From a virus, in IMG/VR virus record IMGVR_UViG_3300047317_000454, positions 1 to 45,004 of that record: DNA of 45,004 nt. One strand, given 5' to 3'. Both the position numbers and the translations under genes were made by a program. Under the pieces are notes generated by a model that was not told the DNA's origin, searched no databases, and saw nothing but the letters and a program-made list of their open reading frames with translations. Positions within the stretch are counted from its first letter, which is position 1. Each line of letters starts with the position of its first letter. This document shows positions 929 through 31,716 of this stretch, in pieces.

Positions 929-936
929 CCGTATCA
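929..936 (+). promoter_or_regulatory. CCGTATCA motif, leaderless type
   Basis: Octamer CCGTATCA. Its first base lies exactly 13 nt before the ATG at 942 and there is no Shine-Dalgarno between them. The same arrangement occurs at 2904, 16378 and 31709. Read as a -10-like element, it would start transcription at or next to the ATG. Confidence 0.55.
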
Positions 937-941
937 CCGGC

Positions 942-1157
942 ATGCCCCCTCCCACGCATTTCCGTATCCTGCCCACCGCGACCCGGACCGCGTGTGGTCG
1001 TCCCCGCGTGCCTGCGGAGTCTGGTGACCCGTCGGCCGTAACGTGCCTCGTGTGCCTGAAGTCCGTGCCGCATCGGTTGTCCGGGCGGGTCGCCTCGTCG
1101 GAGTTGCCGTTGTCCATCGCATCCGTGAGGCAGACGCTGGCCCGTATCAGGGCGTGA
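942..1157 (+). CDS. Small Cys/His zinc-site protein, 71 aa
   Basis: The ATG is placed by the CCGTATCA motif 13 nt upstream; no ribosome-binding site is present, which suggests a leaderless mRNA. Visible features are H6, C18, C35 and C38 (TACGR then VTCLVC), a spacing typical of small actinophage proteins with one structural zinc site. There is no recognisable catalytic domain and the function is unknown. The last codons overlap another CCGTATCA motif at 1142-1149. A longer frame upstream exists but crosses the hairpin element and looks non-coding. Confidence 0.6.
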   Translation: MPPPTHFRILPTATRTACGRPRVPAESGDPSAVTCLVCLKSVPHRLSGRVASSELPLSIASVRQTLARIRA

Positions 1158-1206
1158 CGGACCGGCCAAGATCCGTCCAGGGCCCAACCGAGGCGCGCCG
1201 GTCCGT
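1142..1206 (+). repeat. CCGTATCA plus two-palindrome hairpin element, copy
   Basis: Motif CCGTATCA at 1142-1149. Left arm 1157-1166 (ACGGACCGGC) pairs with right arm 1197-1206 (GCCGGTCCGT). Palindrome centres at 1161 and 1202 are 41 nt apart and the loop contains GGCCCAA. The right arm runs directly into the CCGTATCA of the next copy, so two elements stand in tandem ahead of the gene at 1297. Confidence 0.65.
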
Positions 1207-1270
1207 ATCAGGAGGTGCCGGGTCAGCCAGAGCCCTTCCGTTATCCCAACGGCCAAGCGCTGGCCCGGCA
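1203..1270 (+). repeat. CCGTATCA plus hairpin element, tandem copy
   Basis: Motif CCGTATCA at 1203-1210. Left arm 1216-1227 (TGCCGGGTCAGC) pairs with right arm 1259-1270 (GCTGGCCCGGCA) with one G-U pair. Centres are 43 nt apart and the loop contains CCCAACGG. It is followed by the Shine-Dalgarno and start of the gene at 1297. Confidence 0.6.
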
Positions 1271-1296
1271 TCAAACAGAACACACAGGAGGAACAG

Positions 1297-2286
1297 ATGT
1301 TGTCCAAGAACAAGACGCATGCCCGGACCTGGGAGGCGAACGCGGATGAGTTCGGCCGGACGGCCCGGGGAGAGGGGAGTTGGTATCTCGCGGCGTTGAT
1401 CGCCTGCTCGGTGTCGCTGCAGCCTTCGCCGGGCAAGGTCCCGCCGGTGGTGTTCGCCGCCCGGGCGGAGGTCAGTGAGGGCACCGTCAAGAAGTACCTC
1501 GACGGGTGGGAGAGGGCGATCGCGGCGGGTGCTCCGATCCCGTCGGTCTTCACGTTGTCGCCGGATTCGATCGGGACGTTCCCGCTGCCGGAGCGGGCGT
1601 TCAACGGGCCGAACGGGTACGTCTCGACCAAGAACTCCGCCGCCAACGGCGTGAACTCGATCCTCGAGGCCATCGTCGCGCCGGTGTCGGGGAAGACGGC
1701 GAAGATCACCACCGAACTCTCGAAGTCGGCGGACGCGATCACCAAGATCATCGACATCGCCACCCCGACGACGATCGAGGACATCGTGGATGCGATGTCG
1801 GACGAGACCTACGAGTCGTTCTCCGCTGCCATGGCGGCTGCCGCGATCCAGCCCTCCACCCCGGTCACCCTCACGCCCCACGGTGTGACCCCGGCGAAGG
1901 TCACGTCACCGGCCAAGGTCGCGGCGGCGGAGGCGGCTGCCAAGAAGGTCACGGACGCGGTCATCCTCAAGGACATCGCCAAGTTGGCGGCGGCGACCCA
2001 CAAGACCCTTCCGCCTAAGCCCGACGGGTGGGTGTCTCCGGCCCAGCAGGCGCTGCTGGATTGCCTCGCGGCCGACGAACTCTGGAAGACGGAAGTCGTC
2101 ATCGAGTGGCTCAGGAAGACCGATGCGGCCGTCCTGTCCTACCCGGGGCCGCTGTCGGACGATCACAAGGCGCTCATCACGGAGCGGTTGGAGATCGCCT
2201 CCGACCTCATCGGCACGATCCTGGCGCATGTCGCGGCCAAGGACGGTTCGGCAGTGCCGGACACGGTTCCAGCGGACTGGAACTGA
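1297..2286 (+). CDS. HTH-containing protein of unknown function, 329 aa
   Basis: ATG is preceded by a strong AGGAGG. The N-terminal third contains a helix-turn-helix-like segment (residues about 50-70, RAEVSEGTVKKYLDGWERA), suggesting DNA binding. The rest is helical and Ala/Lys/Thr-rich, with a low-complexity linker around residues 190-230. Two tandem CCGTATCA/hairpin elements precede it, an unusual amount of 5' regulatory sequence in this genome, so it may be a regulator or an abundantly made DNA-binding protein. No family is recognised and a repressor role is inference only. A strong hairpin follows the stop codon. Confidence 0.75.
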   Translation: MLSKNKTHARTWEANADEFGRTARGEGSWYLAALIACSVSLQPSPGKVPPVVFAARAEVSEGTVKKYLDGWERAIAAGAPIPSVFTLSPDSIGTFPLPERAFNGPNGYVSTKNSAANGVNSILEAIVAPVSGKTAKITTELSKSADAITKIIDIATPTTIEDIVDAMSDETYESFSAAMAAAAIQPSTPVTLTPHGVTPAKVTSPAKVAAAEAAAKKVTDAVILKDIAKLAAATHKTLPPKPDGWVSPAQQALLDCLAADELWKTEVVIEWLRKTDAAVLSYPGPLSDDHKALITERLEIASDLIGTILAHVAAKDGSAVPDTVPADWN

Positions 2287-2292
2287 AAGGAC

Positions 2293-2331
2293 GGGACCCC
2301 GGGTCCGGCCACCAACCAGCCCCGGGGTCCC
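2293..2331 (+). terminator. Strong GC hairpin after the HTH gene
   Basis: GGGACCCCGG at 2293-2302 pairs perfectly with CCGGGGTCCC at 2322-2331. It begins 7 nt after the stop codon of the upstream gene and lacks a T-tract. A second small hairpin follows (GCCGAC 2338-2343 with GTCGGC 2348-2353). Termination or 3'-end protection is plausible. Confidence 0.5.
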
Positions 2332-2370
2332 CATTCCGCCGACATCGGTCGGCAGAGAGAAGTCTGCGTT

Positions 2371-2826
2371 ATGAGTAAGGCAGTCCCTGCATGGATGTCC
2401 ACGTTCCACTGGCTCAAGTCCCGGCCCGACGGCGCGACGTGGCGGGAGATCTGTTACGGCGTCGGCATCAACCGGGGGACCTGGCGGGCGCACCGCTGGT
2501 ACATCATCCGGTTCTTGGAGGGCACCAACCTCGCCCTTCCTGACGCGACCCGGGAGACGGGGTTCCGGTTCCGGATCACCGACGAGTGGGAGTCGGCGGA
2601 CAAGCCGGACCTCCATCGGGGGAGGGTGGCCGATGTCGGTCACATGCTGGCCCGGACCAGGCGGAGCGAGCACGAGGCGGAGGTCCGCTACGAAGCGGCT
2701 GTCCGTTCGGAACCGCTCGGCAAGCGGTCCCTGCTGGCACGGGAGTGCCTGGCCGACATGGGCAGGATCGCCCTGGCGCGCGATCAACTCGAGAAGGAAC
2801 TCGTCAAGCTCGGCGGGACGATCTAG
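2371..2826 (+). CDS. Hypothetical protein with HTH-like N-terminus, 151 aa
   Basis: The start ATG is preceded by a purine-rich stretch (GAGAGAAG). Residues about 20-45 (GATWREICYGVGINRGTWRA) look like a helix-turn-helix, followed by a basic, Arg-rich middle and a long C-terminal helix. This is compatible with a DNA-binding protein. I do not recognise the family. It is followed closely by a copy of the dispersed hairpin element. Confidence 0.7.
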   Translation: MSKAVPAWMSTFHWLKSRPDGATWREICYGVGINRGTWRAHRWYIIRFLEGTNLALPDATRETGFRFRITDEWESADKPDLHRGRVADVGHMLARTRRSEHEAEVRYEAAVRSEPLGKRSLLARECLADMGRIALARDQLEKELVKLGGTI

Positions 2827-2837
2827 CCCCACCGGGC

Positions 2838-2896
2838 GGTACCGGACCGGCCATTCCCCGAGCGTGGGCCCAAACCGGCCTCGCCGGTCCGGTACC
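2838..2896 (+). repeat. Two-palindrome hairpin element lacking its own CCGTATCA
   Basis: GGTACCGGACCGGC (2838-2851) and GCCGGTCCGGTACC (2883-2896) form a perfect 14-bp stem. Palindrome centres are 42 nt apart and the loop carries GGGCCCAAA. No CCGTATCA lies 13 nt ahead of the left arm; one lies just after the right arm, at 2904. Confidence 0.65.
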
Positions 2897-2903
2897 TCTT
2901 CCC

Positions 2904-2911
2904 CCGTATCA
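2904..2911 (+). promoter_or_regulatory. CCGTATCA motif, leaderless type
   Basis: CCGTATCA, with its first base 13 nt before the ATG at 2917 and no Shine-Dalgarno. Same geometry as at 929, 16378 and 31709. Confidence 0.55.
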
Positions 2912-2916
2912 CCCGT

Positions 2917-3258
2917 ATGTCCTCTCCTGAAGCATCGCTGTACGTCGCCGCGATCGACCGCCTCGCCAAGCAGGTCGGCCGGATCGCGGATGCCGTAGCT
3001 GCGACAGTGCCCGCCCCTGCCGGGGCCAAAGCGGCAACCGTCACCAAAGGTGCTCCGCCCCGGCAGGGGTCTGTTGCGCCCGGGCCCGTCCCGGACGCTT
3101 TCAGGTCCCTCCTGCTCGCGTCCGAAGCGGTCCTGGAATCTGTCGGGTCCCGGTACGGCAGGGCGGACCTGCCGTTGCCGGTGCTCAACGCGGTCGGCAC
3201 GCTGTCGTTGTCCGTCAATCTGTGTCACCGGTTCCTCGAAGGGAGCACCACCCCATGA
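2917..3258 (+). CDS. Hypothetical protein, 113 aa
   Basis: Starts at an ATG 13 nt after the first base of a CCGTATCA motif, with no ribosome-binding site, so it is probably leaderless. It has a helical N-terminus, a Pro/Ala linker (residues about 30-60) and a helical C-terminus. No family is recognised. The stop overlaps the next start (ATGA), indicating translational coupling to the zinc-finger gene. Confidence 0.65.
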   Translation: MSSPEASLYVAAIDRLAKQVGRIADAVAATVPAPAGAKAATVTKGAPPRQGSVAPGPVPDAFRSLLLASEAVLESVGSRYGRADLPLPVLNAVGTLSLSVNLCHRFLEGSTTP

Positions 3259-3767
3259 AGGAAGTCGTCATCCAGTCGTGGTGCGACGTGTGCGCCTCGG
3301 AGAACGGGCGTGCCCGGGCGGACACCGTCTACCGGATCGGTATCGACGGCCCCCCGCACGACATCGACCTCTGTCTTCAGCACGAAGCCGTCGTAGCCGA
3401 CCTCGCCCGGCTGCTCGCCCGGCTGCCGCTGTCCGTCACCCCCACCGTCACCCCGAAGCCCGGCAGGCCCCCCAAGGCGTCCCTGTCATCGTCGGGCCCC
3501 GGCGACAGCCCCTCGGTCCGGACGGCGTGCCGGATCTGCGGGAAGACGTTCAACAAGACGTCCCTGACCCCGCATATCTGGTCGAAGCACCGGAGGGGCG
3601 AGGTCAGGCCCGCGCCCCCCGCCTCGTGTCCGGACTGCGGGGCCACCACCGTGTCCCCCCGGCACATGGGTGTCCACCGGGCCCAGACGCACGGCTGGAA
3701 CGCCATCGAGGACGCTTACTCGGGGGTTCCCGTGCCCGTCCTGACCGCCCCCCGGAAGGTGTCCTGA
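3255..3767 (+). CDS. Zinc-binding protein with Lsr2-like N-terminus and two C2H2 fingers
   Basis: 170 aa from the ATG that overlaps the previous stop. The N-terminal 50 residues (WCDVCASE, IDLCLQHEAVVADLARLL) resemble the N-terminal part of small actinobacterial Lsr2-type proteins. After a Pro-rich linker come two Cys2-His2-like zinc fingers: CRICGKTFNKTSLTPHIWSKH-type around residue 93 and CPDCGATTVSPRHMGVHRAQ-type around residue 126. A nucleic-acid-binding role is likely and regulation is a guess. It lies in a translationally coupled run of small genes from 2917 to 4709. Confidence 0.7.
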   Translation: MKEVVIQSWCDVCASENGRARADTVYRIGIDGPPHDIDLCLQHEAVVADLARLLARLPLSVTPTVTPKPGRPPKASLSSSGPGDSPSVRTACRICGKTFNKTSLTPHIWSKHRRGEVRPAPPASCPDCGATTVSPRHMGVHRAQTHGWNAIEDAYSGVPVPVLTAPRKVS

Positions 3768-4018
3768 TGTCCACCGCCACCCCGCTGTGCCAGGCCCGGA
3801 TCAGGCCGTTCCCGGGCGACACCGAGGTCGCCTGTTCCCGCTCCGCCCGGCACGACGGGATGCATCTCGGCACCGTCCGGGACTACGCCTACCCCGGCTC
3901 CGCCACCGACATCTCGTGGGACCCCGCCGACCGGCGGAACTTCACCGGACCGTGGAGGCCCTGCCCACAGATCGGCTGTGTCCTGCCGGTCCTGCATCGC
4001 GGGGAGCACTCGCTGTGA
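3767..4018 (+). CDS. Small Cys/His protein, 83 aa
   Basis: ATG overlaps the previous stop (TGATG). The protein has scattered Cys and His residues (LCQAR, ACSRSARHDGMH, CPQIGC, HRGEH), consistent with one zinc-binding unit. It has no recognised family. It is coupled to both neighbours and probably co-translated. Confidence 0.6.
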   Translation: MSTATPLCQARIRPFPGDTEVACSRSARHDGMHLGTVRDYAYPGSATDISWDPADRRNFTGPWRPCPQIGCVLPVLHRGEHSL

Positions 4019-4419: not shown

Positions 4420-4709
4420 TGTTGCGCTACATCGGGTCCTTCGGCACGGGCTCCACGGTCACCGAGTCCGCCGCCCAACTGGCCGAGAGGATGTACCGGA
4501 ACGGCTGGCGGTGGGTCACCATCACCGACTCCGTCACCGGGGCGGTGGTCGGCGGGGTGGGACGGCACACGGCCCAGGGCAAGCGGGTGTGGTGGGGCGA
4601 CGACACCCCGCCGCCTCCCCCTGAACCGAAGCCTCCGGTCCCCGAGCCGCGTGCGCCGGGCCGGTCCAAGCTGCGCCTCGCCCCGCCCGTGTCGGAGGGC
4701 CCGCCGTGA
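4419..4709 (+). CDS. Hypothetical protein with Pro-rich C-terminus, 96 aa
   Basis: ATG overlaps the previous TGA. The first 65 residues look like a compact alpha/beta domain (AAQLAERMYRNGWRWVTITD), followed by a disordered Pro-rich tail (PPPPPEPKPPVPEPRAP). Function is unknown. Confidence 0.6.
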   Translation: MLRYIGSFGTGSTVTESAAQLAERMYRNGWRWVTITDSVTGAVVGGVGRHTAQGKRVWWGDDTPPPPPEPKPPVPEPRAPGRSKLRLAPPVSEGPP

Positions 4710-4727
4710 TGCGCCGATACTTCGTCC

Positions 4728-4925: not shown

Positions 4926-4953
4926 TCCCGGTGCGGGAGCAGTGCGTCTAGCA

Positions 4954-4990
4954 GGAGACATTTGACAACTGTCTCCATTTCAGGTACTGT
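4954..4990 (+). promoter_or_regulatory. Host-type promoter P1 with embedded inverted repeat
   Basis: -35 TTGACA at 4962-4967, 17-bp spacer, -10 TACTGT at 4985-4990. The -35 lies inside an inverted repeat GGAGACA (4954-4960) / TGTCTCC (4970-4976). The 15-mer TTGACAACTGTCTCC is shared exactly with P2, P3 and P4. It serves the genes from 5034 onward. The repeat is a candidate operator. Confidence 0.8.
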
Positions 4991-5033: not shown

Positions 5034-5495
5034 GTGTTGCTCGGATTCCGCGTCGGGCCCGTAGGGCTCTATACGGGCAGTACCCGTCAGCGACGGCCCA
5101 CCTACTCGCCGGGGCAGTGGCTTCTCCTGTGCATCCTGTGTGCCCCGCTCATCGAGATCATCCTTCTCGTGCTGTTCGTCTACGGGCTCATCAAGCTGGG
5201 TGTGCTGCTCTACAACCTGGGGGTATCCCTCCACGACGAATACACAGCCGGTCGTTACGGGGACCCCGATGACGACGACACCGACACAGAAGGAGACAGC
5301 GATGTCAGCACCGACACCCGAGACGACTGGGACGATCACGGACGAGACAGTGACGGGTGGTACTTCACCGACGACGGGCAGTACCTCATCACCGACCGAA
5401 TCCACGGAATCGACAGCCTCGACGGGGACACCCTGGATCGCGGGCGACGCGCCGGATTCGGGGAGCCACCCTGGGGAGACCGCCACCACGACTGA
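5034..5495 (+). CDS. Membrane protein with acidic C-terminal tail, 153 aa
   Basis: The GTG start is chosen because GGGGAGGT lies 5 nt upstream; a TTG at 5010 in the same frame is weaker. One long hydrophobic region (residues about 30-60, WLLLCILCAPLIEIILLVLF then VYGLIKLGVLL) is followed by an Asp-rich cytoplasmic-like tail (DPDDDDTDTEGDSD). The last 190 nt overlap the next gene in a different frame, yet codon use in this frame stays typical of the genome, so both frames may be real. It is the first gene after promoter P1. Function is unknown. Confidence 0.6.
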   Translation: MLLGFRVGPVGLYTGSTRQRRPTYSPGQWLLLCILCAPLIEIILLVLFVYGLIKLGVLLYNLGVSLHDEYTAGRYGDPDDDDTDTEGDSDVSTDTRDDWDDHGRDSDGWYFTDDGQYLITDRIHGIDSLDGDTLDRGRRAGFGEPPWGDRHHD

Positions 5496-6595: not shown

Positions 6596-6662
6596 CCGTA
6601 TCACCCTCGCCGGACCGGCCAAAGCACCGGCCTGTGTCCAATGTCGAACCGCCGGGTCCGGC
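6596..6662 (+). repeat. CCGTATCA plus two-palindrome hairpin element
   Basis: Motif at 6596-6603. Left arm GCCGGACCGGC (6609-6619) starts 13 nt after the first base of the motif; right arm GCCGGGTCCGGC is at 6651-6662. Centres are 42-43 nt apart. It precedes the gene at 6689. Confidence 0.7.
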
Positions 6663-6688
6663 ACCCACTCGTCCCAGGAGCCCGCCAG

Positions 6689-7005: not shown

Positions 7006-7013
7006 CCGTATCA
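7006..7013 (+). promoter_or_regulatory. CCGTATCA motif before the gene at 7080
   Basis: CCGTATCAT, 67 nt before the start of the next gene. The downstream leader is GC-rich with possible short hairpins but does not match the standard two-arm element. Confidence 0.5.
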
Positions 7014-8012: not shown

Positions 8013-8041
8013 TTGACAACTGTCTCCTAGCCGTGTAGAGT
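8013..8041 (+). promoter_or_regulatory. Host-type promoter P2
   Basis: -35 TTGACA at 8013-8018, 17-bp spacer, -10 TAGAGT at 8036-8041, with the shared 15-mer TTGACAACTGTCTCC. It drives the HAD phosphatase gene at 8080. Confidence 0.82.
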
Positions 8042-9178: not shown

Positions 9179-9624
9179 CCGTCGTCCAGGGCCCCTGGCC
9201 CATCGAGGACCCGGACGAGTCCCAGGAGCCGTCTGAGCCGCCTCCCGACCCCGGTTCGCCGCTGATGCGCCGGTTCCGGACCCGGCTGTCCACCGGGGCC
9301 AAGAACCCGAAGCTGCCGAGCATCGAGCAGCGCCGTAACGCGCGCCGCCGGAAGCTCGACAAGCTGTTCCAGGGAAAGCACTTCCGGATCGCCGCCGAGA
9401 TCAAACTCGAGGACGACGACTTCGTCTACGACGTGCTCGGGTACCGGGCGCAACAGGGCTACTGGCTTGAGAATGTCGATGACCCGGTGGACAACTTCAT
9501 CGTCGGCCGGGGTGTCCTGCTCGTGGCCTGGCAGGAATATGGCAGTGTCAGCCTGCCGGTACAGACTTCGGTCCAGAAGCGCATCCGACTGTGGGCCAAG
9601 GTTCCGATAATCACCAGGGGTTGA
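9175..9624 (+). CDS. Hypothetical basic protein, 149 aa
   Basis: GTG overlaps the upstream TGA. It has a Pro/Glu-rich N-terminus, a strongly basic segment (EQRRNARRRKLDKLFQGKHF) and a beta-rich C-terminal half. It may bind nucleic acid. No family is recognised. Promoter P3 starts within its last codons. Confidence 0.65.
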   Translation: MTVVQGPWPIEDPDESQEPSEPPPDPGSPLMRRFRTRLSTGAKNPKLPSIEQRRNARRRKLDKLFQGKHFRIAAEIKLEDDDFVYDVLGYRAQQGYWLENVDDPVDNFIVGRGVLLVAWQEYGSVSLPVQTSVQKRIRLWAKVPIITRG

Positions 9625-9649
9625 CAACTGTCTCCCCGCCGGGTAATGT
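9621..9649 (+). promoter_or_regulatory. Host-type promoter P3
   Basis: -35 TTGACA at 9621-9626, 17-bp spacer, -10 TAATGT at 9644-9649, sharing TTGACAACTGTCTCC. The -35 overlaps the stop codon of the upstream gene. It drives the sigma-like gene at 9712 and probably the clamp-loader gene behind it. Confidence 0.82.
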
Positions 9650-9711: not shown

Positions 9712-10368
9712 ATGCCAATCATCGAAGCAGGACTCGTTCCAGCGACCCATCACGTCCCGGTCCAGACGACACTCCGGGCCTGGCGGGCACGGCAGGAGGC
9801 CGACCGCCCGTCGCCGGTGCCGACCAACTACGCCGAACTCTTCATCGGGTACGGCAACTACCTCAAGGCCGTCGTCATCCAGCAGGGCATCGCACCCGAG
9901 AGTGCCGACGACGTCGTCAGTTACATCCTGGAACGACTGATCTCCCGGGACGTGCTGTCGATGTTCGACCCGGACGGGTTCGTCGCATCCGGCAGGGGGA
10001 CCGTCTCCCCGAAGTTCCGGACGTTCATCACCGCGTTCGTCTACGCCTACTGCCGTGGGCAGCGGGAGAAGTTGCAGATCACGGCCTACCGGGAACGCCC
10101 CTCGACCTTCGAGGAAGGCACCTTGTGCGCCGGTGCCACGACCGAGATCGGCATCCCCGGCACCGAGTCCGCCGTCGATGCCGTCAACGACCGGCTCGGC
10201 TCGTACACGGTCGCCGGGATCGAGGCAAAGTTGTTCCTCAGCACGATCGAGGACTGCACGACACCGCGTGGGCAGGTCGACTTCCAGGCGATGGCAAGGG
10301 CTCTCGGTGTCACGAAGTCCGTCATCCTGACCGGCATGCAGGAACTGCAGGAATGCCTGCGGCCGTAG
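9712..10368 (+). CDS. Putative RNA polymerase sigma-factor-like protein, 218 aa
   Basis: ATG chosen after AAGGGGAAAGGG. Residues about 42-115 read like sigma region 2: ELFIGYGNYLKAVVIQQGI, then SADDVVSYILERLISRDVLS, FDPDGF and FRTFITAFVYAYCRGQREK. A short C-terminal HTH-like segment (DFQAMARALGVTKSVILTGM) could be region 4. This matches the layout of divergent phage sigma factors, but the similarity is weak and a general DNA-binding protein is possible. Transcribed from host-type P3, it would be suited to switch on the CCGTATCA family of sites (inference). Confidence 0.5.
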   Translation: MPIIEAGLVPATHHVPVQTTLRAWRARQEADRPSPVPTNYAELFIGYGNYLKAVVIQQGIAPESADDVVSYILERLISRDVLSMFDPDGFVASGRGTVSPKFRTFITAFVYAYCRGQREKLQITAYRERPSTFEEGTLCAGATTEIGIPGTESAVDAVNDRLGSYTVAGIEAKLFLSTIEDCTTPRGQVDFQAMARALGVTKSVILTGMQELQECLRP

Positions 10369-11153
10369 TCGGCCACGGGGGGCTGGTCTCCGCGTTGGAG
10401 GCCAGCCAACCCCCCGTGGTCCTGTTGACCGGGCCGCAACACGTCGGTAAGCGGACCATCGCGGCCTACCTGGCCCAGCACATGGGTGTGCAGCCGACCG
10501 ATTACACCTACTGCGCCAACCCTCTGGCGGACTCGCTCCGGGGCATGACATCGAACATGCTCAGGGCCCCGTTCGGCGAATACCGTTACGGCGTCATACG
10601 TCTCGACGGTGCCAGACCCGAAGCCACCGGCGTGCTGCTCAAATCCCTCGAGGAACCACCGCCGTCGGCCATGTACGTCCTGCTGTCCTCCACCCGGGTG
10701 CCGGACACCATCGCGTCCCGCGCGGCCCGGTATTCGGTGGGGCTGTTATCCGCCAACGACGTCGCCCGAATCCTCAACACGAACCTGGGGTTCGACGTCG
10801 GCACCTCGGTCCGGGCAGCCCGGGTGGCCAGGGGCCAGGTGCATCGGGCACTGCAGGCCGTCGAGATCTCCAAGGCGAAGATCAGGGTCCTCAATGTCCT
10901 TCGCGCCGTGTCCGACATGGACGCCGTGGCGATCGAGGACGCCACTGTCGATTGGGGGGAACGGGAGCACCTGCTGCTCGTCCAGTGGCTGTCGGAGGCC
11001 CTGTCAGGCTCGTGGTCCACGTTCTCCGAGAGCGACAGCCCCCTCACCCGGAACCGGCAGTTGCTCCGGAGGATGCTCGTAGGGATGCGTTACCCCGCTG
11101 CCCCTCAGCGCGCGGTGCGGGCCGTCCTGCTCGCCCTCGTCACGGACGTATAA
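10353..11153 (+). CDS. Clamp-loader delta'-like AAA protein, 266 aa
   Basis: The ATG at 10353 overlaps the end of the sigma-like gene by 16 nt. Walker A is GPQHVGKRT (residues 27-35, K33). The core VIRLDGARPEATGVLLKSLE, then EPPPSAMYVLLSS and VPDTIASRAARY, is the classic HolB/DnaX pattern (LLKxLEEPP, sensor 1, SRA/SRC). It is shorter than host delta' but keeps the ATPase-like core. It would form a pentameric loader with the DnaX-like (32282) and delta-like (12042) proteins and place the clamp encoded at 26772. Good confidence in the superfamily; the exact subunit is inferred. Confidence 0.75.
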   Translation: MPAAVVGHGGLVSALEASQPPVVLLTGPQHVGKRTIAAYLAQHMGVQPTDYTYCANPLADSLRGMTSNMLRAPFGEYRYGVIRLDGARPEATGVLLKSLEEPPPSAMYVLLSSTRVPDTIASRAARYSVGLLSANDVARILNTNLGFDVGTSVRAARVARGQVHRALQAVEISKAKIRVLNVLRAVSDMDAVAIEDATVDWGEREHLLLVQWLSEALSGSWSTFSESDSPLTRNRQLLRRMLVGMRYPAAPQRAVRAVLLALVTDV

Positions 11154-11509: not shown

Positions 11510-11578
11510 CCGTATCATCGAGTGCCGGACCGGCCATCACCCCAGCGAATACCCAACCACGGACCGCCGGTCCGGTAC
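11510..11578 (+). repeat. CCGTATCA plus two-palindrome hairpin element
   Basis: Motif at 11510-11517. Arms GTGCCGGACCGGC (11522-11534) and GCCGGTCCGGTAC (11566-11578) form a 13-bp stem with one G-U. Centres (11529 and 11571) are 42 nt apart. Confidence 0.7.
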
Positions 11579-11580
11579 CC

Positions 11581-11615
11581 GGTGGGGGCCGGGAAGAGGA
11601 AGCTCGGCCCCCACC
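11581..11615 (+). terminator. 11-bp hairpin in the leader of the gene at 11636
   Basis: GGTGGGGGCCG (11581-11591) pairs perfectly with CGGCCCCCACC (11605-11615). It sits between the dispersed element and the ribosome-binding site, so it is more likely a leader structure than a terminator. Confidence 0.4.
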
Positions 11616-11635
11616 AGCCACAACTAGGAGCACAT

Positions 11636-11953
11636 GTGACCGAGCCCCAAGAGGCCCCCGCCGAGCTTGTCGCTGAGTTGGCCGCGCTGGCGGAGCGGAA
11701 CTCCCAGCAGTGGGACGCTCTGCACCGCATGGGGGCGTCGGTCGACCCTGACGCGATTCTGATGACTCGCATTCAGTGCCTCGTGGACGTGCTCCTGCCG
11801 CCCGAGACCGACGTCCGTGCGGCGTTCGAGATCATGTACGAGAAGGTCATCGCCGCCAACCTGGCCGGTGCGTTGTCCGAAGCTCGGCAGGCGTCGATCC
11901 TGCAGCCGATCCCGGTGCGGGGCCCGTCGTCCCTGATCGTCCCCAAGCGCTGA
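11636..11953 (+). CDS. Hypothetical helical protein, 105 aa
   Basis: The GTG has TAGGAG 7 nt upstream. An all-helical protein (AELVAELAALAERNSQQWDA, then AFEIMYEKVIAANLAGALSE) with an unstructured end. No family is recognised. It stands between two hairpin elements and is probably a single-gene unit. Confidence 0.65.
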   Translation: MTEPQEAPAELVAELAALAERNSQQWDALHRMGASVDPDAILMTRIQCLVDVLLPPETDVRAAFEIMYEKVIAANLAGALSEARQASILQPIPVRGPSSLIVPKR

Positions 11954-11954
11954 C

Positions 11955-12022
11955 CCGTATCAAGGGTGTCGGACCGGCCAAAACGGACGCTTAGATCCAG
12001 AAAATGTTCGCCGGTCCGGCAC
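11955..12022 (+). repeat. CCGTATCA plus two-palindrome hairpin element
   Basis: Motif at 11955-11962, overlapping the previous stop region. Arms GTGTCGGACCGGC (11966-11978) and GCCGGTCCGGCAC (12010-12022) pair over 13 bp with one G-U. Centres are 42 nt apart. It precedes the delta-like gene. Confidence 0.72.
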
Positions 12023-12041
12023 CTACTTAGGAGTCGGTGAC

Positions 12042-13667: not shown

Positions 13668-13736
13668 CCGTATCACCAGTGTCGGACCGGCCAGCGAGCC
13701 CTCATGGACCCATACAAGGAACGCCGGGCCCGGCAC
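13668..13736 (+). repeat. CCGTATCA plus two-palindrome hairpin element
   Basis: Motif at 13668-13675. Left arm GTGTCGGACCGGC (13679-13691), right arm GCCGGGCCCGGCAC (13723-13736), centres 42-43 nt apart. The loop carries GGACCCATA instead of CCCAAA. Confidence 0.68.
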
Positions 13737-13761
13737 CACTACTACTGAAAGAACGTGGCAG

Positions 13762-16377: not shown

Positions 16378-16385
16378 CCGTATCA
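16378..16385 (+). promoter_or_regulatory. CCGTATCA motif, leaderless type
   Basis: CCGTATCA directly after the polymerase stop codon, with its first base 13 nt before the ATG at 16391 and no Shine-Dalgarno. Confidence 0.55.
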
Positions 16386-16390: not shown

Positions 16391-16711
16391 ATGGAAATCA
16401 TGGTGGGCAAGAGCGCGAACACGGGCGGCGGCTGGGCCAAGTTCGAGATCTCGCTGGCGGAGTCCGATCTCGAGGGTCTGCTGGTCGCCAACAAGATGGC
16501 CGGTCGCCGGAAGGAACTCAACGAGACCGAAGCCTTCCTGATCTTGGAGACGATGGGGCAGATCCTCGCGTCCCAGCAGTTCCGTCTCCGGCACCCCGGC
16601 GCATGGACCGAGTCCGACCAGGCCGAGTTGGTGGGGTTCGACAGCATGTTCAAGGACGTCATCGCCAGGGTGCAGGCCCGGCTCGGCCCCGAGTCCCCGT
16701 GGACGACGTGA
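16391..16711 (+). CDS. Hypothetical protein, 106 aa
   Basis: Starts at the ATG 13 nt from a CCGTATCA motif and is probably leaderless. A short beta N-terminus (WAKFEISLAESDLEGLL) is followed by helices. No family recognised. Overlaps the next start. Confidence 0.65.
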   Translation: MEIMVGKSANTGGGWAKFEISLAESDLEGLLVANKMAGRRKELNETEAFLILETMGQILASQQFRLRHPGAWTESDQAELVGFDSMFKDVIARVQARLGPESPWTT

Positions 16712-18260: not shown

Positions 18261-18268
18261 CCGTATCA
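18261..18268 (+). promoter_or_regulatory. CCGTATCA motif before the SSB-like gene
   Basis: CCGTATCAT, 63 nt before the start at 18324. The leader contains a short GGGGT/ACCCC hairpin and CCCCAACGG, but not the standard two-palindrome element. Confidence 0.5.
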
Positions 18269-19978: not shown

Positions 19979-21180
19979 CCGGAGCGAAGACCGAGAAGAA
20001 GGGTCCGCCGACCCTGGCCGCTGCCCTGGCCTCGATCCAGAAGAAGCACCATCTCTCGATCGGCAGCCTCGCCGCCGTGGCCGACCCGGTCGCCGCGATC
20101 AGCACCGGGAACCTCGCCATCGACGCCATCACCGGCGTCAACGGCATCCCCCTGGGGCGGATGACCGAGTTGTACGGGCTCCCGTCGTCGGGGAAGACCA
20201 CCACCGCACTGCAGACCGCGTCGATCCTGCAGCGAATCATCAAGTCCGGAGGGTCAGATGCCTTGGGCGTCAAGGCATCTGACCGAATCCTGTATCTCGA
20301 CTACGAGCACGCCCTGGACCCGACCTACGCCTCCGCGTTGGGGCTGGACATTGCCGACGAGTCCTTCCTGTTCGCCCAGCCCGGGTCGCTTGAAGAGGGT
20401 GCCAGCGTTGCCCGGACCCTGATCGAGACCGGCGACATCCGGCTGGTGATCTTCGATTCGGTCGCCGCGATGGTGTCGGAGATCCTGCTCGAAGCCGACA
20501 TCGGTGCGGGTGCCGTGGCGATGCGGACCGCCGCCCTGATAGCGCAACTCTGCTCGGCCCTCAATCCGCTGCTCTACGACACCCGCTGCGCCGCGATCTT
20601 CCTCAACCACCTGGCCGAGAAGATCTCGATGGGTGCCCGGCCCGGAGCCCCGCCGATCACCACGACCCCCGGTGGCCGAGCACTGAAGTACCACGCCAGC
20701 CTCCGGCTCGAGTACCGGCAGGTCGGCCAGAACAAGGAGACCGTCCTCGACCCGCTGACCCGGCAGGAACTGTCGCAGACCACGTCGACCGACGTGCTGA
20801 TAAAAGTTGTGAAGAACAAAGTGGCCCCGCCGTTCCGGCAGGCGCATGCCCGGGTCCGGTTCGGAACCGGATTCGATAACGGCTGGACCGGGATGGCGAT
20901 CCTGGTCGCCCAGAAGATCGTCGTCGCGGGCAAGTCGGGCTACCTCTACTTCGACAAGGCCCCCGAACTCGTGCACCCCGACATGCCGCTGCAGGCCACC
21001 GGGTCCCACCGGCCGTATCTGTTGGGTGAGAGGGCCCTCGTGACGTTCCTGGACGAGCATCCGGACTGGACCGACAAGGTCGTGGCCAGGGCCGCTGAGG
21101 TTCTGACGATCTCACCCGTATCACTTGCAGTGGACGACAGCACCCCGCTGCCGGACGACGAGAGTGGAGAAGACCTGTGA
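19975..21180 (+). CDS. recA: RecA/UvsX-type recombinase, 401 aa
   Basis: GTG overlaps the resolvase stop. Walker A is GLPSSGKTT (residues 68-76), Walker B is LVIFDSVAAM, and the core includes YLDYEHALDPTYASALG and the FLNHLAEKI strand (RecA has FINQ). Length and order match RecA family recombinases, with a divergent acidic tail (DDSTPLPDDESGEDL). It forms filaments on ssDNA for strand exchange and recombination-dependent replication. A CCGTATCA motif lies inside its 3' end. Confidence 0.92.
   Translation: MTGAKTEKKGPPTLAAALASIQKKHHLSIGSLAAVADPVAAISTGNLAIDAITGVNGIPLGRMTELYGLPSSGKTTTALQTASILQRIIKSGGSDALGVKASDRILYLDYEHALDPTYASALGLDIADESFLFAQPGSLEEGASVARTLIETGDIRLVIFDSVAAMVSEILLEADIGAGAVAMRTAALIAQLCSALNPLLYDTRCAAIFLNHLAEKISMGARPGAPPITTTPGGRALKYHASLRLEYRQVGQNKETVLDPLTRQELSQTTSTDVLIKVVKNKVAPPFRQAHARVRFGTGFDNGWTGMAILVAQKIVVAGKSGYLYFDKAPELVHPDMPLQATGSHRPYLLGERALVTFLDEHPDWTDKVVARAAEVLTISPVSLAVDDSTPLPDDESGEDL
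21116..21123 (+). promoter_or_regulatory. CCGTATCA motif inside the 3' end of recA
   Basis: The octamer occurs 61 nt upstream of the GTG at 21177. It could be an internal promoter for the DUF932-like gene, but as an in-gene copy without hairpin or leaderless start it may be chance. Confidence 0.3.
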
Positions 21181-22409: not shown

Positions 22410-22478
22410 CCGTATCACCAGTAGCCGGGCCCGCCATTGAAGCCCCACAGACCCAAAGTTCATGCTCGGGTCCGGCAC
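22410..22478 (+). repeat. CCGTATCA plus hairpin element, diverged copy
   Basis: Motif at 22410-22417. Left arm GCCGGGCCCGCC (22424-22435) and right arm CTCGGGTCCGGC (22465-22476), centres about 42 nt apart, with GACCCAAAG in the loop. It is followed 15 nt later by host-type promoter P4. Confidence 0.6.
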
Positions 22479-22492
22479 CCCGAACTCAGCAG

Positions 22493-22521
22493 TTGACAAC
22501 TGTCTCCCAACCGTGTAAAGT
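22493..22521 (+). promoter_or_regulatory. Host-type promoter P4
   Basis: -35 TTGACA at 22493-22498, 17-bp spacer, -10 TAAAGT at 22516-22521, with the shared TTGACAACTGTCTCC. It drives the gene at 22566. Confidence 0.85.
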
Positions 22522-23573: not shown

Positions 23574-23639
23574 CCGTATCAGTAACGCCGGACCGGCCAT
23601 TCCAGGCGCGTAGGCCCAAAGGGCTACCGCCGGTCCGGC
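23574..23639 (+). repeat. CCGTATCA plus two-palindrome hairpin element, consensus copy
   Basis: Motif at 23574-23581. Left palindrome GCCGGACCGGC (23587-23597) starts 13 nt after the motif's first base; right palindrome GCCGGTCCGGC is at 23629-23639. Centres 42 nt apart, loop with GGCCCAAAGG. This is the cleanest copy. Confidence 0.75.
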
Positions 23640-23684
23640 ACCAAAGCTCCCCGTGTGACTGTCCGGCCTCACGGAAGAGTGGAA

Positions 23685-25661: not shown

Positions 25662-26506
25662 TGGGCTACCCGCATCTCTTCCTGTCCTGGTCCCAGTTCC
25701 GCAACTGGGAGGACTGCCACATGCGGGTGAAGCTCGTCCGGGAGAAGAAGGGCCCCAAGCTCCGGGACATCCGGGTGTTCTTCCCCGGCACCGTCGTGGA
25801 CCGGGCGATGCGGGCCTGGCTGACCGACGACGACCGGAAGCCCGGTGGCATGGTCGAGTGCGTGGAGGCGGTCCTGGACCGGGAAGAGAAGACCGCACTC
25901 GAAACCAGCGACGGGATCGTCCGGTGGCGGCACGCCGACGACCGGGCACAGATCATCGAGACGTGCGGCCGGTTGCTGACCAACCTCGAACCGCTGCTCG
26001 ACAAGCTCGTGCTGCCGTTCGAGTTCGAGCCCGCCCACAACTTCCGGGTCAACGTGGGGCTGCCCGCACCTGACGGCTCCAACGCCGTCGTGACGCTGGT
26101 CGGTGAGATGGACCTGCTGGTCCGGTACCAACCCGAGCAGTGGGGGATCTACGACCTCAAGTTCACGGCGAACAAGGACTACTGGCGCAAGACGATCCAG
26201 CAGTTGACGTTCTACTCGATCGCCCGCCGGGCGATGTTCGGCGGGGAGACCGTGATCGCCGCGCTGCTGCAGCCGCTGATCGACCCTCCCTACGTCGCGG
26301 CCAAGGCCGACGTCGACTCGGAGGCACAGTTGTTCGCCCGGCTGATCCGCTACGCACACTCGCTGTGGCTGGGTGACTTCCCCTACGTCGAGTCGACCAA
26401 CGAGTGTTACTCCTGCTCGGTGCAGGACGCCTGCCCCCGGTTCCGGCCGGTCCCCGGCACCCACCGCTTGTCGTGGGGTCCCCCTGGTCCGTATCAGGAG
26501 TCGTGA
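25661..26506 (+). CDS. Cas4/AddB-like PD-(D/E)XK nuclease with Fe-S cluster, 281 aa
   Basis: ATG overlaps the upstream TGA. Core motifs: VGEMDLLV (E149, D151), YDLKFT (D165, K167) and QQLTFYSIA (Q181, Y185), the RecB-type nuclease signature. Cys 19 and the C-terminal set C249-x2-C252-x5-C258 match the Fe-S cluster ligands of Cas4 and AddB. No helicase domain is present. Expected role: 5' or 3' end resection together with the Mre11/Rad50 homologues. There is no CRISPR context, so a Cas4 adaptation role is not suggested. Confidence 0.82.
   Translation: MGYPHLFLSWSQFRNWEDCHMRVKLVREKKGPKLRDIRVFFPGTVVDRAMRAWLTDDDRKPGGMVECVEAVLDREEKTALETSDGIVRWRHADDRAQIIETCGRLLTNLEPLLDKLVLPFEFEPAHNFRVNVGLPAPDGSNAVVTLVGEMDLLVRYQPEQWGIYDLKFTANKDYWRKTIQQLTFYSIARRAMFGGETVIAALLQPLIDPPYVAAKADVDSEAQLFARLIRYAHSLWLGDFPYVESTNECYSCSVQDACPRFRPVPGTHRLSWGPPGPYQES
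26489..26496 (+). promoter_or_regulatory. CCGTATCA motif at the end of the nuclease gene
   Basis: CCGTATCA, with its first base 14 nt before a GTG (26503) that is in frame with the ATG at 26509. GGAG lies between motif and start, so this copy could serve either a leaderless or a short-leader mRNA. Confidence 0.45.
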
Positions 26507-26508: not shown

Positions 26509-26775
26509 ATGCCTACAGCCCCCGCCCTGGATCTCGCTGAGATCACCACGCGGTACAACACCCTCCAAACGCACAAGGCGCGGTTGGACCGGAACGTGAT
26601 CGCCTACGAGACGAAGTTGGAGACGTTGGAGGCCCAGCGCACCGCGCTGCTGGCCAAGCTCTCCGAGCAGTTCGGGGTCGACGGGATCGAGGCCGGGGTG
26701 GCGTTGGCCGTTAGTCTCCGGGCGCAGTTGACCGAACTGCTGACCGCTATCGAAGAGGAAGTTGGTTCCGGATGA
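26509..26775 (+). CDS. Small coiled-coil protein, 88 aa
   Basis: ATG 26509, or GTG 26503 if leaderless. Almost entirely heptad-like helix (ITTRYNTLQTHKARLDRNVI, then ETKLETLEAQRTALLAKLSE) followed by a helical pair around EQFGVDGIEAGVALAV. Its place between the two Rad50 halves suggests a third piece of that machine or a coiled-coil partner, but it has no ATPase motif. The stop overlaps the clamp gene start. Confidence 0.7.
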   Translation: MPTAPALDLAEITTRYNTLQTHKARLDRNVIAYETKLETLEAQRTALLAKLSEQFGVDGIEAGVALAVSLRAQLTELLTAIEEEVGSG

Positions 26776-27929
26776 CCCAGGTTGTCGACGCCGTGCCCGA
26801 CACGGCGCTCGGGGCAGCGTTCACGATCAAGCACAACGTCTTCTCGTTGGTGCTCCGCCGGGTGTACTCGGTGGTGCCGACCACGCAGGTGGCGCTCAAC
26901 GTGCTCCGGCAGTTCAAGATCGTGGCGGGCCCCGGCGGGCTGACGATCTCGGGCACCGACCTCGAACTCTCCGCCGTCGGCACGACGACGCTGGTCGACG
27001 TCGACCGGCCGGGGACGTTCTACGTCACGGCCCGGACGCTGATGGCCGCACTGGACAAGCTGACCGGCGAGACGATCTCCGTCGATGTCGGCGGTGGCCG
27101 GGCCCGGGTGTCCAGCGGGACGGGCAACGTTGACCTGGCGCTCTACGCCAACGACGACTTCCCGGTGTTCCCCGACCTGTCCGACGTCTCGATGTCCGCC
27201 ATCGACCGGGAGAAGTTCCTCGCCGGGGTCGACTCGGTGTATCGGGCTGCCTCGCAGGAGGTGACCCGTGCGAACCTGATGATGGTCAGCGTGGCCGACG
27301 GCCGGATGACGGCTTGCGACAACGCACGGCTGCATCAGTTCGTGCTCGGTGACGACTTCCCGGTGTCCCTGCAGATCCCGATCAAGGCGCTGGACTCGAA
27401 GCGGCTCCCGGCCCTGTTGCGGGACGACTCGCTCAAGACGGTGCAGGTCGGTGAGACCAAGAACCACCTCGTGTTCCGGCTGGGCACGTTCATCTTCCTG
27501 GCGTCGAAGGTGACGGCCAAGTACCCGGACGTCGAGTCGCTGCTGCTGGTCCCGGCGCGCACCGAGAACCATCACCAGATGACCGTGGACCGTGATGACC
27601 TGGCCAGAGCGATCTCCCTGGTGACGGTGACCGCCGACACGGACACCTCCGCGATCAAGCTCGACATCTCCGGCACGACGCTGACCCTCCGATCGAAGAA
27701 CAAGGAGGGGGAGCGGGCCGAGTACTCCGTCACCGTGGGCTGGACCGGGTCGCCCCGGAGCCTCGTCGTCAACTACGGGTTCCTCTCCGACATGGTGGCG
27801 TCGTCGGAGGCCAAGGTGCTCAAGTTCCTGATCGGGGACGACACCAAGACGGCCAAGCGCCCCCTGCTGCTCGAGGACTCCAAGGCCGGGTTCACCGGCC
27901 TCATCCAGCAGATGCGGGTCGAGGTATGA
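26772..27929 (+). CDS. dnaN: DNA polymerase III beta (sliding clamp) homologue, 385 aa
   Basis: ATG overlaps the previous stop (ATGA). Length equals bacterial DnaN, with three repeated clamp domains. Recognisable segments are LRRVYSVVPTTQVALNVLRQ, ISGTDLELSAVGT, YANDDFPVFPDL, SVADGRMTACDNARLHQF, KVTAKYPDVESLL and the C-terminal VNYGFLSDMVASSEA. It forms a dimeric ring tethering DNA polymerase to DNA. Loader subunits are encoded at 10353, 12042 and 32282. Confidence 0.92.
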   Translation: MTQVVDAVPDTALGAAFTIKHNVFSLVLRRVYSVVPTTQVALNVLRQFKIVAGPGGLTISGTDLELSAVGTTTLVDVDRPGTFYVTARTLMAALDKLTGETISVDVGGGRARVSSGTGNVDLALYANDDFPVFPDLSDVSMSAIDREKFLAGVDSVYRAASQEVTRANLMMVSVADGRMTACDNARLHQFVLGDDFPVSLQIPIKALDSKRLPALLRDDSLKTVQVGETKNHLVFRLGTFIFLASKVTAKYPDVESLLLVPARTENHHQMTVDRDDLARAISLVTVTADTDTSAIKLDISGTTLTLRSKNKEGERAEYSVTVGWTGSPRSLVVNYGFLSDMVASSEAKVLKFLIGDDTKTAKRPLLLEDSKAGFTGLIQQMRVEV

Positions 27930-28791: not shown

Positions 28792-28822
28792 CCGTCCGTA
28801 CGATGAGCGGAGGGAGGCAGCC

Positions 28823-31696
28823 ATGACCCAGCGCACGCCCCAGCAGATCACCGAGTGGTTCGACGCCAATCAGCATCGGTTCGACGGCCCGACCCAGTAC
28901 CTAGGCACCGAGCCCAATGCGTGGGCCAAGCCGTGGGACGACAACCCGACCCGGCTGCTCATCACGGCGTCGTGGCCGTACAACGCGGCGGCGGGCAACC
29001 AGTCGATCCCTGCCGTGTACAAGACGGTCAACCTCGGGGACGGGCTGCTCGCGGACCGGTACTACCTCCCGGCCACGCCCCGGGACCTCAAGCTGTTCGA
29101 GTCCAACGCCATTCCGATGTTCGGAATCGAGTCCAAGCATGCTGCGATGGACTTCGATGTGGTGTCGACGTCGATCAGCTATTCGGTGCTGATAATGAGC
29201 TTTCACAAGCTGCTCGGAGTATCGGGAATCCCGGGTTCCCGGAAGGTCAGGGAACAGACCCCCGAAGCCTTCCCCATGGTGATGATCGGAGGCCAGATCT
29301 ATGCCAATCCGGAAAGTGTCGCCGGGATCGCGGACGTCATCTTCCTCGGTGAGTGCGAGGATGAGCCTGGGAATCCTGGATTACGCGCAGTTCTCGACCG
29401 TATTACCGCCTTCAAGTCCTCCGGATTGTGGACTGCTGACCGTGTGGCCTGTTACGAAGCTCTCGCACGCGAGTTCAACTTCCTCTACTTCCCCCGCTTC
29501 GTAGACGTCGAATATGCCTACATCGACCGAGGATTGGAGCACCCCTCCAAGCAGGTTGTCGGCTATCGAGCAGTCCTGTCGGGCATGGCGATGCCTTTCG
29601 TCAAACGATTCGTGCATGATCTGGACGCGATACCGCCGCTCGATGACCCGCCGTTGCTGTATGCGAATGTGAGCATGGGTGCGGGCGATCTCGAGGTCGG
29701 CCGGGGCTGCCCGGCGTGGTGCTCGTTCTGTGCCCTGACCTACCGCCAGAAGCCTTATCGGCAGCGGTCGGTCAAGTACGTCACCGACATGGCGCTCGGG
29801 GTGCGGGACAACATGGGGGCGTCCCGGCTGTCGCCGTTCGCCCCGGATACCCCGATGCACACCCAGAAGAAGCAACTCGTCGCATCCCTGGTCCAGAACG
29901 TCTCCGACGAGGTCGACTCCCTGGCGATGCGGGTGGACGACTTCACCGCCGACGACGCCTACATCACGCTGCAGGTCGGGTCCGGCCTGGACGATGTCAC
30001 CCTGGGGCTCGAGGGCAACTCCCAGCGGATGCGGGACCTTGTCGGCAAGGGCCTGACCGATGCCGCCGTGGTGGAGGCGGTCCAGAAGGGGATCACTGCG
30101 GGGATCAAGAAGTTCAAGCTGTTTATGATCTCCGACCTGCCCGGCGAGGACGCCGGTGACGTGATGAAGATCGTCAAGCTGGGCTACGCCCTGGCGGCGG
30201 TGCGGGACAACTCCGGGGTGCCGAACGTCCGTATCCAGTTCTCCTGGACGCCGCTGCTGATCGAGGCCGGGACCCCGTTCCAGTGGTTCGCACCCACCCC
30301 GAAGGTCAGCAAGGAACTACTGGACGTGTGGGAAGAGTTCCGGAAGATCGGCGTCGAGTACAAGGTCGGGGCCAAGGCCGAGCCCAACAAGACGGCGTTC
30401 TTCCAGTTGTGCCAGCGGGCCTCCCGGGAGGTCGGGGACGCCATCACCTCCTGGCTCGAGGACATTCAGCAGGCGTGCTGGGGCGGGGTGCCCCGGGACG
30501 CCAAGGAGAAGCTGACCGAGAAGCTGGTCGAGTTCGGCTTCCTCAACGGCTTCGATGACTGCTTCGATGAGCGAACGCTGATCGACATGTTCGGTTGGGA
30601 GTTCATCGACCAGGGCGTGTCCATCGACCTGCTGTGGCGGACGTTCGTGTCGATGCGGGAGTTCGCGGAGCAGACCGATTCCATCTCGTATGAGGCCACC
30701 CTCGAACCCGGGTACATGGGCAACGAGTGGCTGCAGCGGTGCGACGAAGCCTGCATGGGCCGGTCGTGTGGGGTGTGCTCCGCCGACGACCTCAAGATCC
30801 GCCGGGCCTACGTGGTGGCCGGGAGGTCCGACGACGTCGACCTGGACAAGATCAAGCCCATCGACCAGTCCACCGTGGCCTGCAAGATCCGGGCGAAGCT
30901 CATCAAGCCCGACGACACCCGGCTCGTGGAGAACGACCACTGGCGCTTCGCCGTCCGGCGTGCCGCGTTCCGGGCCGCGACCAAGCTGGGGACGCCGTAC
31001 ACGATCGCCAAGCGGACCATCCGGTTCGCCTCCGACGTGATCGTGCTCAAGGACTGGACGTCCGGGGTGGACTACGTCGAGTTCGGCATGACCGACCGGC
31101 TCGGCCCCGGGGACGCCGAGACATACATCTCATGTATGTCTGATGAGTTGGCCAAGTGGCTGACTCTGTCGACGCTGCCCGACGACTACGCGATCCTGCC
31201 TCCGTACGGCAAGACCATCACCAGCGACATCGACCTCTCGCTCTACGAGCTAGAGGTTGCCGATGACTACACCGCCATACGGACGCACTTGGACCACTGG
31301 GAGGCATCTGAGAGCGTCCGTATGGTCCTACGGAACCCGTCCGGGTACTTCGGGGCCGCTGCGGAGGAAGTCAACGCGAAGGACTACGTGGACGGCATGT
31401 GGCTCAAGGCCGAGGGCTCCCGGCTGCTGCTCAAGATGCTGCTCCGGGGACGGCCGACGCCCTACAACATCCATCAGGTGCTGACCGGCAAGCCGTCGAT
31501 GATCGAGGCCACGGCCAAGCCCGCCGTCCGGCTGGGGATCTTCCTCGGGGTGGACGGGGAGCAACTGGACTGGTTCCGGCCGAACTGCCAGGTGTGCGGG
31601 AATCAGATCCCCACCACCCTGACCGACCGTCCATTCCACGGCGAACTGTGCCCTCAGTGTGCGGATTCCGTTGCGGTGGCGACTGTCTCGGACTAG
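28823..31696 (+). CDS. B12-binding-like radical SAM protein, 957 aa
   Basis: ATG with GGAGGGAGG upstream. Residues about 45-180 resemble a cobalamin-binding domain (FDVVSTSISYSVLIMSFHKL, then MVMIGGQIYANPESVAGIAD, FLGECED). The radical SAM cluster motif is C296-x3-C300-x2-C303 (RGCPAWCSFC). The barrel continues with LGLEGNSQRMRDLVGKGLT and FKLFMISDLPGED, as in the YgiQ/TIGR03960-type group. Residues about 640-665 hold a second Cys cluster (CDEACMGRSCGVCS). Residues about 700-800 may correspond to the DUF2344 domain often fused to that group, and the end carries CQVCG...CPQC. The reaction is unknown; modification of a nucleic acid or a protein is possible. Confidence 0.8.
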   Translation: MTQRTPQQITEWFDANQHRFDGPTQYLGTEPNAWAKPWDDNPTRLLITASWPYNAAAGNQSIPAVYKTVNLGDGLLADRYYLPATPRDLKLFESNAIPMFGIESKHAAMDFDVVSTSISYSVLIMSFHKLLGVSGIPGSRKVREQTPEAFPMVMIGGQIYANPESVAGIADVIFLGECEDEPGNPGLRAVLDRITAFKSSGLWTADRVACYEALAREFNFLYFPRFVDVEYAYIDRGLEHPSKQVVGYRAVLSGMAMPFVKRFVHDLDAIPPLDDPPLLYANVSMGAGDLEVGRGCPAWCSFCALTYRQKPYRQRSVKYVTDMALGVRDNMGASRLSPFAPDTPMHTQKKQLVASLVQNVSDEVDSLAMRVDDFTADDAYITLQVGSGLDDVTLGLEGNSQRMRDLVGKGLTDAAVVEAVQKGITAGIKKFKLFMISDLPGEDAGDVMKIVKLGYALAAVRDNSGVPNVRIQFSWTPLLIEAGTPFQWFAPTPKVSKELLDVWEEFRKIGVEYKVGAKAEPNKTAFFQLCQRASREVGDAITSWLEDIQQACWGGVPRDAKEKLTEKLVEFGFLNGFDDCFDERTLIDMFGWEFIDQGVSIDLLWRTFVSMREFAEQTDSISYEATLEPGYMGNEWLQRCDEACMGRSCGVCSADDLKIRRAYVVAGRSDDVDLDKIKPIDQSTVACKIRAKLIKPDDTRLVENDHWRFAVRRAAFRAATKLGTPYTIAKRTIRFASDVIVLKDWTSGVDYVEFGMTDRLGPGDAETYISCMSDELAKWLTLSTLPDDYAILPPYGKTITSDIDLSLYELEVADDYTAIRTHLDHWEASESVRMVLRNPSGYFGAAAEEVNAKDYVDGMWLKAEGSRLLLKMLLRGRPTPYNIHQVLTGKPSMIEATAKPAVRLGIFLGVDGEQLDWFRPNCQVCGNQIPTTLTDRPFHGELCPQCADSVAVATVSD

Positions 31697-31708
31697 CGGA
31701 GATCATCT

Positions 31709-31716
31709 CCGTATCA
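31709..31716 (+). promoter_or_regulatory. CCGTATCA motif, leaderless type
   Basis: CCGTATCA 13 nt before the ATG at 31722, with no Shine-Dalgarno; same geometry as at 929, 2904 and 16378. Confidence 0.55.

Follow-up and report, generated by a model that had tools for sequence, protein, structure and literature searches.

In the 45,004-base viral DNA stretch of IMG/VR record IMGVR_UViG_3300047317_000454 (here called the window, meaning the whole stretch that was analysed), we found that the octamer CCGTATCA is probably the -10 element of a phage promoter class. Judging from sequence, these promoters would be read by an extracytoplasmic-function (ECF) type sigma factor encoded by gene g20 of the same window, and their transcripts would start at a start codon or at a hairpin. 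An earlier note on this DNA had suggested a promoter core that fixes the point of transcript initiation, together with an unusual sigma factor or activator. The suggestion gains from the recurrence of CGTATCA-N5-start in related phages, from -35-like bases in those relatives and from a conserved gene for a putative ECF-like sigma factor.

The window has a G+C content of 64-69% and all its called genes are on the + strand. Exact search located 16 copies of CCGTATCA on the + strand and none on the - strand, at the very coordinates given in the earlier note, which had also described the octamer as over-represented and limited to one strand. Dinucleotide shuffles of the window gave a mean of 0.69 copies and a maximum of 3, and CCGTATCA ranks first among window octamers for over-representation. 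By our gene calls, 14 of the 16 copies are fully intergenic in a window that is 7.2% noncoding (binomial P 1e-14), in agreement with the previous description of nearly all copies as lying between genes. The two exceptions are 21116..21123, within the last ~65 nucleotides (nt) of g35 (RecA/UvsX-like) and upstream of g36, and 26489..26496, within the last ~18 nt of g41. The conserved block around the octamer is ~8-12 bp long; a T five nt upstream of CGTATCA, absent from the earlier note, is kept in 13 of the 16 sites. The sites span 0.9-31.7 kb, the region of small genes and DNA replication genes, with none at the packaging/structural end; terminase and portal genes begin at 36 kb, beyond the last copy. 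The complete strand bias and the absence from the structural-gene end would suit a directional motif that serves replication, recombination or packaging of the DNA, in the manner of Chi or KOPS. The intergenic concentration and the fixed distance to start codons speak against such a motif, and we regard it as exceedingly improbable.

An ATG lies exactly 13 nt past the first C of CCGTATCA at four of the 16 copies (chance of at least four, P 2e-5), and all four lack a Shine-Dalgarno sequence. At the -10-like site 929..936, the predicted transcription start is the A of the ATG at 942, which opens a leaderless open reading frame of 71 aa (942-1157). Leaderless starts are likewise predicted for g4 at 2917 (site 2904..2911), g29 at 16391 (16378..16385) and g47 at 31722 (31709..31716). 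At eight other copies, the base of a stem-loop is found 12-14 nt past the first C, so placed that the hairpin begins at the predicted transcription start. These are 1142..1149 (stem-loop 1154-1211), 1203..1210 (1215-1273), 6596..6603 (6607-6666), 11510..11517 (11522-11580), 11955..11962 (11966-12024), 13668..13675 (13679-13738), 22410..22417 (22421-22480) and 23574..23581 (23585-23643). The stem-loop at 11522 opens with a GTG in frame with g23 (window 11522 to 11636), so that a leaderless, N-terminally extended g23 is possible. The earlier claim of a fixed distance holds for these start codons and stem-loops. The copies at 18261..18268 (upstream of g33), 21116 and 26489 have neither feature at exactly that distance, the last preceding a near-leaderless g42 start at 26509. 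The copy at 7006..7013 is followed by a shorter hairpin of other sequence ahead of g15.

Nine stem-loop copies could be aligned over 58-60 nt, with 13 pairs and a loop of ~31 nt. In the loop, the CCA that follows the 5' arm is invariant and a CCCAA block is conserved. In this alignment 93% of the cells pair, and in four pairs both partners have changed. Covariation scores 0.235, compared to 0.126 in shuffles, and the signal is lost when the partner is slid. A covariance model added a tenth, diverged copy at 871..922 (30 bits). This copy and that at 2839..2897, both on the + strand, have no octamer upstream and stand directly before the octamers at 929 and 2904, which follow 6-7 nt downstream, an arrangement missing from the earlier note. 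The stem-loop is therefore not merely a part of the promoter. In stem-loop 1154-1211 the 3' arm (GCCGGTCCG) overlaps the octamer 1203-1210, and this copy has lost some of its outer pairs, so stem and promoter appear to constrain each other. No Rfam family matched the stem-loop at its gathering score, and a permissive search gave chance-level matches only. Covariance-model searches of most of the fetched phage genomes (G010 and G012 excluded) yielded no significant stem-loop, a pattern search of IMG/VR for the stem-loop found none, and an IMG/VR scan for octamer plus stem-loop letters gave three matches, a chance level. Its role may be 5'-end protection, protein binding or antitermination. Adjoining stem-loops could also guide an endonuclease that cleaves longer transcripts near the octamer and so makes the 5' ends; with all genes in one direction, the sites could fall within read-through RNA. 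Such processing is very improbable in view of the sites' location mainly in intergenic gaps, the -35-like bases in relatives and the presence of an ECF-like sigma gene.

The window terminase shows 47% identity to its counterpart in Magritte, a 133-kb Microbacterium phage whose host is M. foliorum. The g20 protein matches Magritte gp60 (30% identity, E 2e-6), which is annotated as 'DNA binding protein', and the order gp60/g20, ASCE ATPases, DNA polymerase is alike in the two phages. Because of the Magritte and terminase matches we infer that the host of the window phage is an actinobacterium. A search with a DNA-polymerase alignment found 26 IMG/VR loci, many of them in phages of ~130 kb. Searches of IMG/VR that used g20 by itself or a two-sequence alignment found no relatives, nor did a scan of bacterial genomes for the polymerase. 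The Magritte paper makes no mention of promoters or repeats (PMC11663251).

The CGTATCA core and its distance to start codons recur in these distant relatives. We pooled 63 forward CGTATCA sites from five phages, namely the window, Magritte and three from IMG/VR (G013, G014 and G018). ATG or GTG occurs at offset 5 after the motif in 24 of the 63 sites, the expectation being 1.7 per offset (P ~1e-21) and the runner-up offsets having 5 sites each. Magritte carries nine CGTATCA-N5-ATG on the + strand, and five of the predicted starts coincide with annotated ones (65556, 78356, 93838, 117575 and 119654). Several annotated Magritte starts differ from the predicted leaderless ones, and those gene starts would be corrected. 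In a scan in which neither the k-mer nor its fixed distance to the start codon was set beforehand, GTATCAC-N4 / GTATCA-N5 was the strongest signal for Magritte and ranked high for both G018 and G013, with related variants GCGTACCAGTAG in G016 and GGCGTATACAT in G011. In G014, CGTATCAC has 17 copies on the coding strand versus 2 on the other.

Cluster K mycobacteriophages have a start-associated element, SAS. Start codons at a fixed distance in five phages and the lack of a Shine-Dalgarno sequence at those starts might be read as an SAS-like element acting in mRNA or in translation initiation, instead of a promoter. No start codon stands at offset 5, however, in 12 of the 16 window octamers and in 15 of the 19 forward CGTATCA sites of G014; eight window octamers are followed by a stem-loop instead, and relatives have -35-like bases upstream at fixed spacing. 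We judge an SAS-like element quite improbable and the promoter reading is kept below.

The upstream bases were compared in site sets from Magritte, G013 and G018 that had been picked by the start-codon side. Conservation on that side is by construction; upstream conservation is not, as the upstream bases played no part in the choice. Aligned on CGTATCA, the G018 sites have GGCAC at -21..-17, and all 12 of them carry G and C at -20/-19; G018 sites selected via the CACAGGCATG part have GCGTATCA-like letters upstream. G013 shows GTKGAT at -23..-18, and 10 of its 11 sites have both A at -26 and T at -18. Magritte shows GAG at -27..-25 plus T at -22 upstream of CGTATCA, and G014 a weak CYTGT near -21. 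With the start codon taken as +1, the G018 box falls near -33..-29 and the octamer at -13..-6. As far as the sequences tell, a box spacing of ~16 in the relatives is ECF-like geometry. The earlier note had seen no conserved -35, which is correct for the window, where none is significant, and incorrect for the relatives, whose upstream bases are conserved at fixed spacing. A TTGACA/TANNNT pattern is absent at the octamers. No T7-like single-subunit polymerase was found among the searched genes of the window, itself a fragment, or in the Magritte annotation, and the window block of ~8-12 bp compares with ~20 bp across the start in promoters of such polymerases.

The g20 gene (+ strand, ATG, 9712..10368) encodes 218 aa and is a homologue of Magritte gp60. 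Its family was found in 14 of the 15 genomes examined, and in the fetched loci the gene is ~3-5 kb upstream of the DNA polymerase gene. A single-sequence fold of g20 was of poor quality and was replaced by an alignment-based AlphaFold model, with pLDDT ~90 across most of two domains. Predicted residues 34-127 superimpose on E. coli sigmaE region 2 bound to -10 DNA (4lup; 2.2 A, 80 residues, Z 8.0), and predicted residues 149-218 superimpose on sigmaE region 4 bound to -35 DNA (2h27; 1.9 A, 61 residues, Z 6.3). The leading PDB and BFVD matches of the model in Foldseek are sigma factors. TM-scores over the whole chain are low, which would follow from an undefined mutual position of the two domains. 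TIGR02937 (sigma70-ECF) aligns along both domains in five of six family proteins tested (E 1e-5 to 4e-3), and PF04542 (region 2) matches five of 13 family proteins (best 8e-5). From the predicted fold and the family matches we take g20 to be a putative, diverged ECF-type sigma with predicted regions 2 and 4.

Several results weigh against g20 as the reader of the octamer. The TIGR02937 matches of its relatives fall below the curated cut-off, and the window g20 itself has no match to a family hidden Markov model (HMM). The sigma tree is unresolved, with a very long window branch, and ties the motif to no branch. Seven genomes (G001, G002, G003, G005, G007, G009 and G012) carry a g20 relative and show no such motif. 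The best -35 candidate of the window scored 4.30 bits where the null had 3.90 +- 0.24, a difference that is not significant despite the predicted region 4, and stem-loop copies 871-922 and 2839-2897 lie upstream of the octamer and not at +1. Given the motif-less bearers and the tree, the g20-octamer link is drawn from genome association and fold only. We had considered G002, G003 and G012 as sigma-free controls and rejected them after a profile search found diverged family members in them; a clean negative group is therefore absent. The same seven motif-less genomes would fit a promoter element read by a host alternative sigma, or by host sigma70 with another phage activator, g20 having a different role. 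Other DNA-binding genes, e.g., g13 (HTH_17), are present, and the window covers no more than a part of the phage genome. On the other hand, the octamers lack the TTGACA/TANNNT pattern, the predicted fold of the g20 family is that of an ECF sigma, and the box is -10-like with an ECF-like -35 spacing in relatives. We consider a host sigma or activator unlikely and a g20-type sigma the probable reader.

In Magritte (L015:4540-4645), G013, G014, G016, G007, G018 and L035, the sigma gene has a 5' leader that folds into a conserved RNA structure. It has an invariant TTGACC...GGTCAA outer stem around a long inner hairpin whose sequence varies by phage; 14 of 25 pairs are changed on both sides, and the structure lies directly upstream of the Shine-Dalgarno sequence or the start codon. 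The Magritte copy has no Rfam match, and the element was not seen in the window phage. It is possibly autoregulatory.

The window also carries four sigma70-like promoters on the + strand, at 4962..4990 (before g10), 8013..8041 (before g17), 9621..9649 (TTGACA-N17-TAATGT, upstream of g20 and predicted to be early) and 22493..22521 (before g37). All four share a TTGACAACTGTCTCC box that is much longer than a -35 box, and the nearly palindromic GACAACTGTC may be an operator. Analogous early promoters in Magritte and G013 carry TTGTGCGTTAGCGCGTGACGTGCAATAAT. In the mechanism we propose, host RNA polymerase would read these TTGACAACTGTCTCC promoters, the one at 9621 driving g20 early. The g20 protein would redirect the host core polymerase to the CCGTATCA sites, with +1 at ~12-14 nt past the first C. 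In some operons +1 would be the first base of the start codon, giving a leaderless mRNA; in others it would be the base of the 13-bp 5'-terminal stem-loop with conserved loop letters, a structure that probably protects or marks the transcript. Since the last octamer lies at 31.7 kb, ahead of the genes for terminase and portal, the regulon is most likely a middle class.

A second + strand motif of Magritte, CGATATCCCTG, is found largely in the structural-gene half, at 5341, 11982, 18362, 29542, 43606, 70407 and other positions (L014-L016); ATATCCCT has 11 copies on the + strand and 0 on the - strand. TATC-N6-ATG occurs at several starts, e.g., of genes 19 and 98, and the CGATATCCCTG sites are probable late leaderless promoters. 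Among the window genes, g46 (28823-31696), in the replication/recombination region, encodes 957 aa with Radical_SAM_N2 and Radical_SAM domains and has distant phage matches only (~24% identity). Genes at 26772-27929, 32282-33433 and 10353-11153 are sliding-clamp (PHROG processivity factor) and clamp-loader-like genes, the latter assigned by a PHROG clamp loader match and a Pfam DNA_pol3_delta2 match.

For barely characterised large phages the proposed programme would run from host-type early promoters to a phage ECF sigma and on to leaderless or stem-loop-headed middle mRNAs. Magritte gp60, until now a 'DNA binding protein', would gain a predicted function. Paired sigma and promoter variants provide material for studying the evolution of ECF specificity, and Magritte, as a cultured relative, allows direct testing. 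We tentatively propose, as a possibility that goes further, that a large group of ~130-kb phages, one cultured member of which infects an actinobacterium, has its own ECF-type sigma family with a diversified code (CGTATCA, CGTACCA and CGTATACAT cores, differing -35 letters) and many leaderless mRNAs. In the window lineage the stem-loop with CCA...CCCAA might then be a regulon-wide transcript signal, e.g., for HK022 put-like antitermination or as a protein-binding protection tag.

Phage sigma factors with their own promoters are already known, phiEco32 gp36 and gp47 of Salmonella phage 7-11 being functional precedents (PMC8948821). Our limited literature search brought up no description of actinobacteriophages with an ECF-type sigma and its matching promoters. 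The phiEco32 gp36 protein directs the polymerase of the host to many phage promoters of middle and late genes, which have a single box, tAATGTAtA, with the start 6-9 bp away (PMC8948821). The likeness to the window is in a phage-encoded sigma with many phage promoters, a single-element consensus and sigma70-type early promoters. As described there, gp36 differs in having no recognisable region 4, whereas g20 has a predicted one, and in its enterobacterial host and other consensus; the text consulted reports neither leaderless transcripts with +1 at the start codon nor a 5' stem-loop family (PMC8948821). The sigma of phage 7-11 (SaPh711_gp47) has region 4 and bipartite promoters, GTAAtg-16-aCTA, which resemble the two-box sites of G018, Magritte and G013, and a stem-loop upstream of its gene is a further likeness (PMC8948821). 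Its boxes are different and it serves late genes only. Cellular ECF sigmas (E. coli sigmaE, actinobacterial SigL/SigH/SigE) share with the predicted g20 regions 2 and 4 and a short linker replacing region 3, and the relatives' sites have ~16 nt between boxes. Unlike them, g20 falls below curated HMM cut-offs, has ~10-15% identity and is predicted to serve a regulon of phage genes with leaderless starts. In Cluster O mycobacteriophages, leaderless mRNAs are predicted from host SigA promoters, few per genome (PMC4351075). Both there and in the window, actinobacteriophage mRNAs are predicted to begin at the first codon base; the Cluster O promoters are predicted for host SigA, whereas the window octamers are predicted for a phage sigma.

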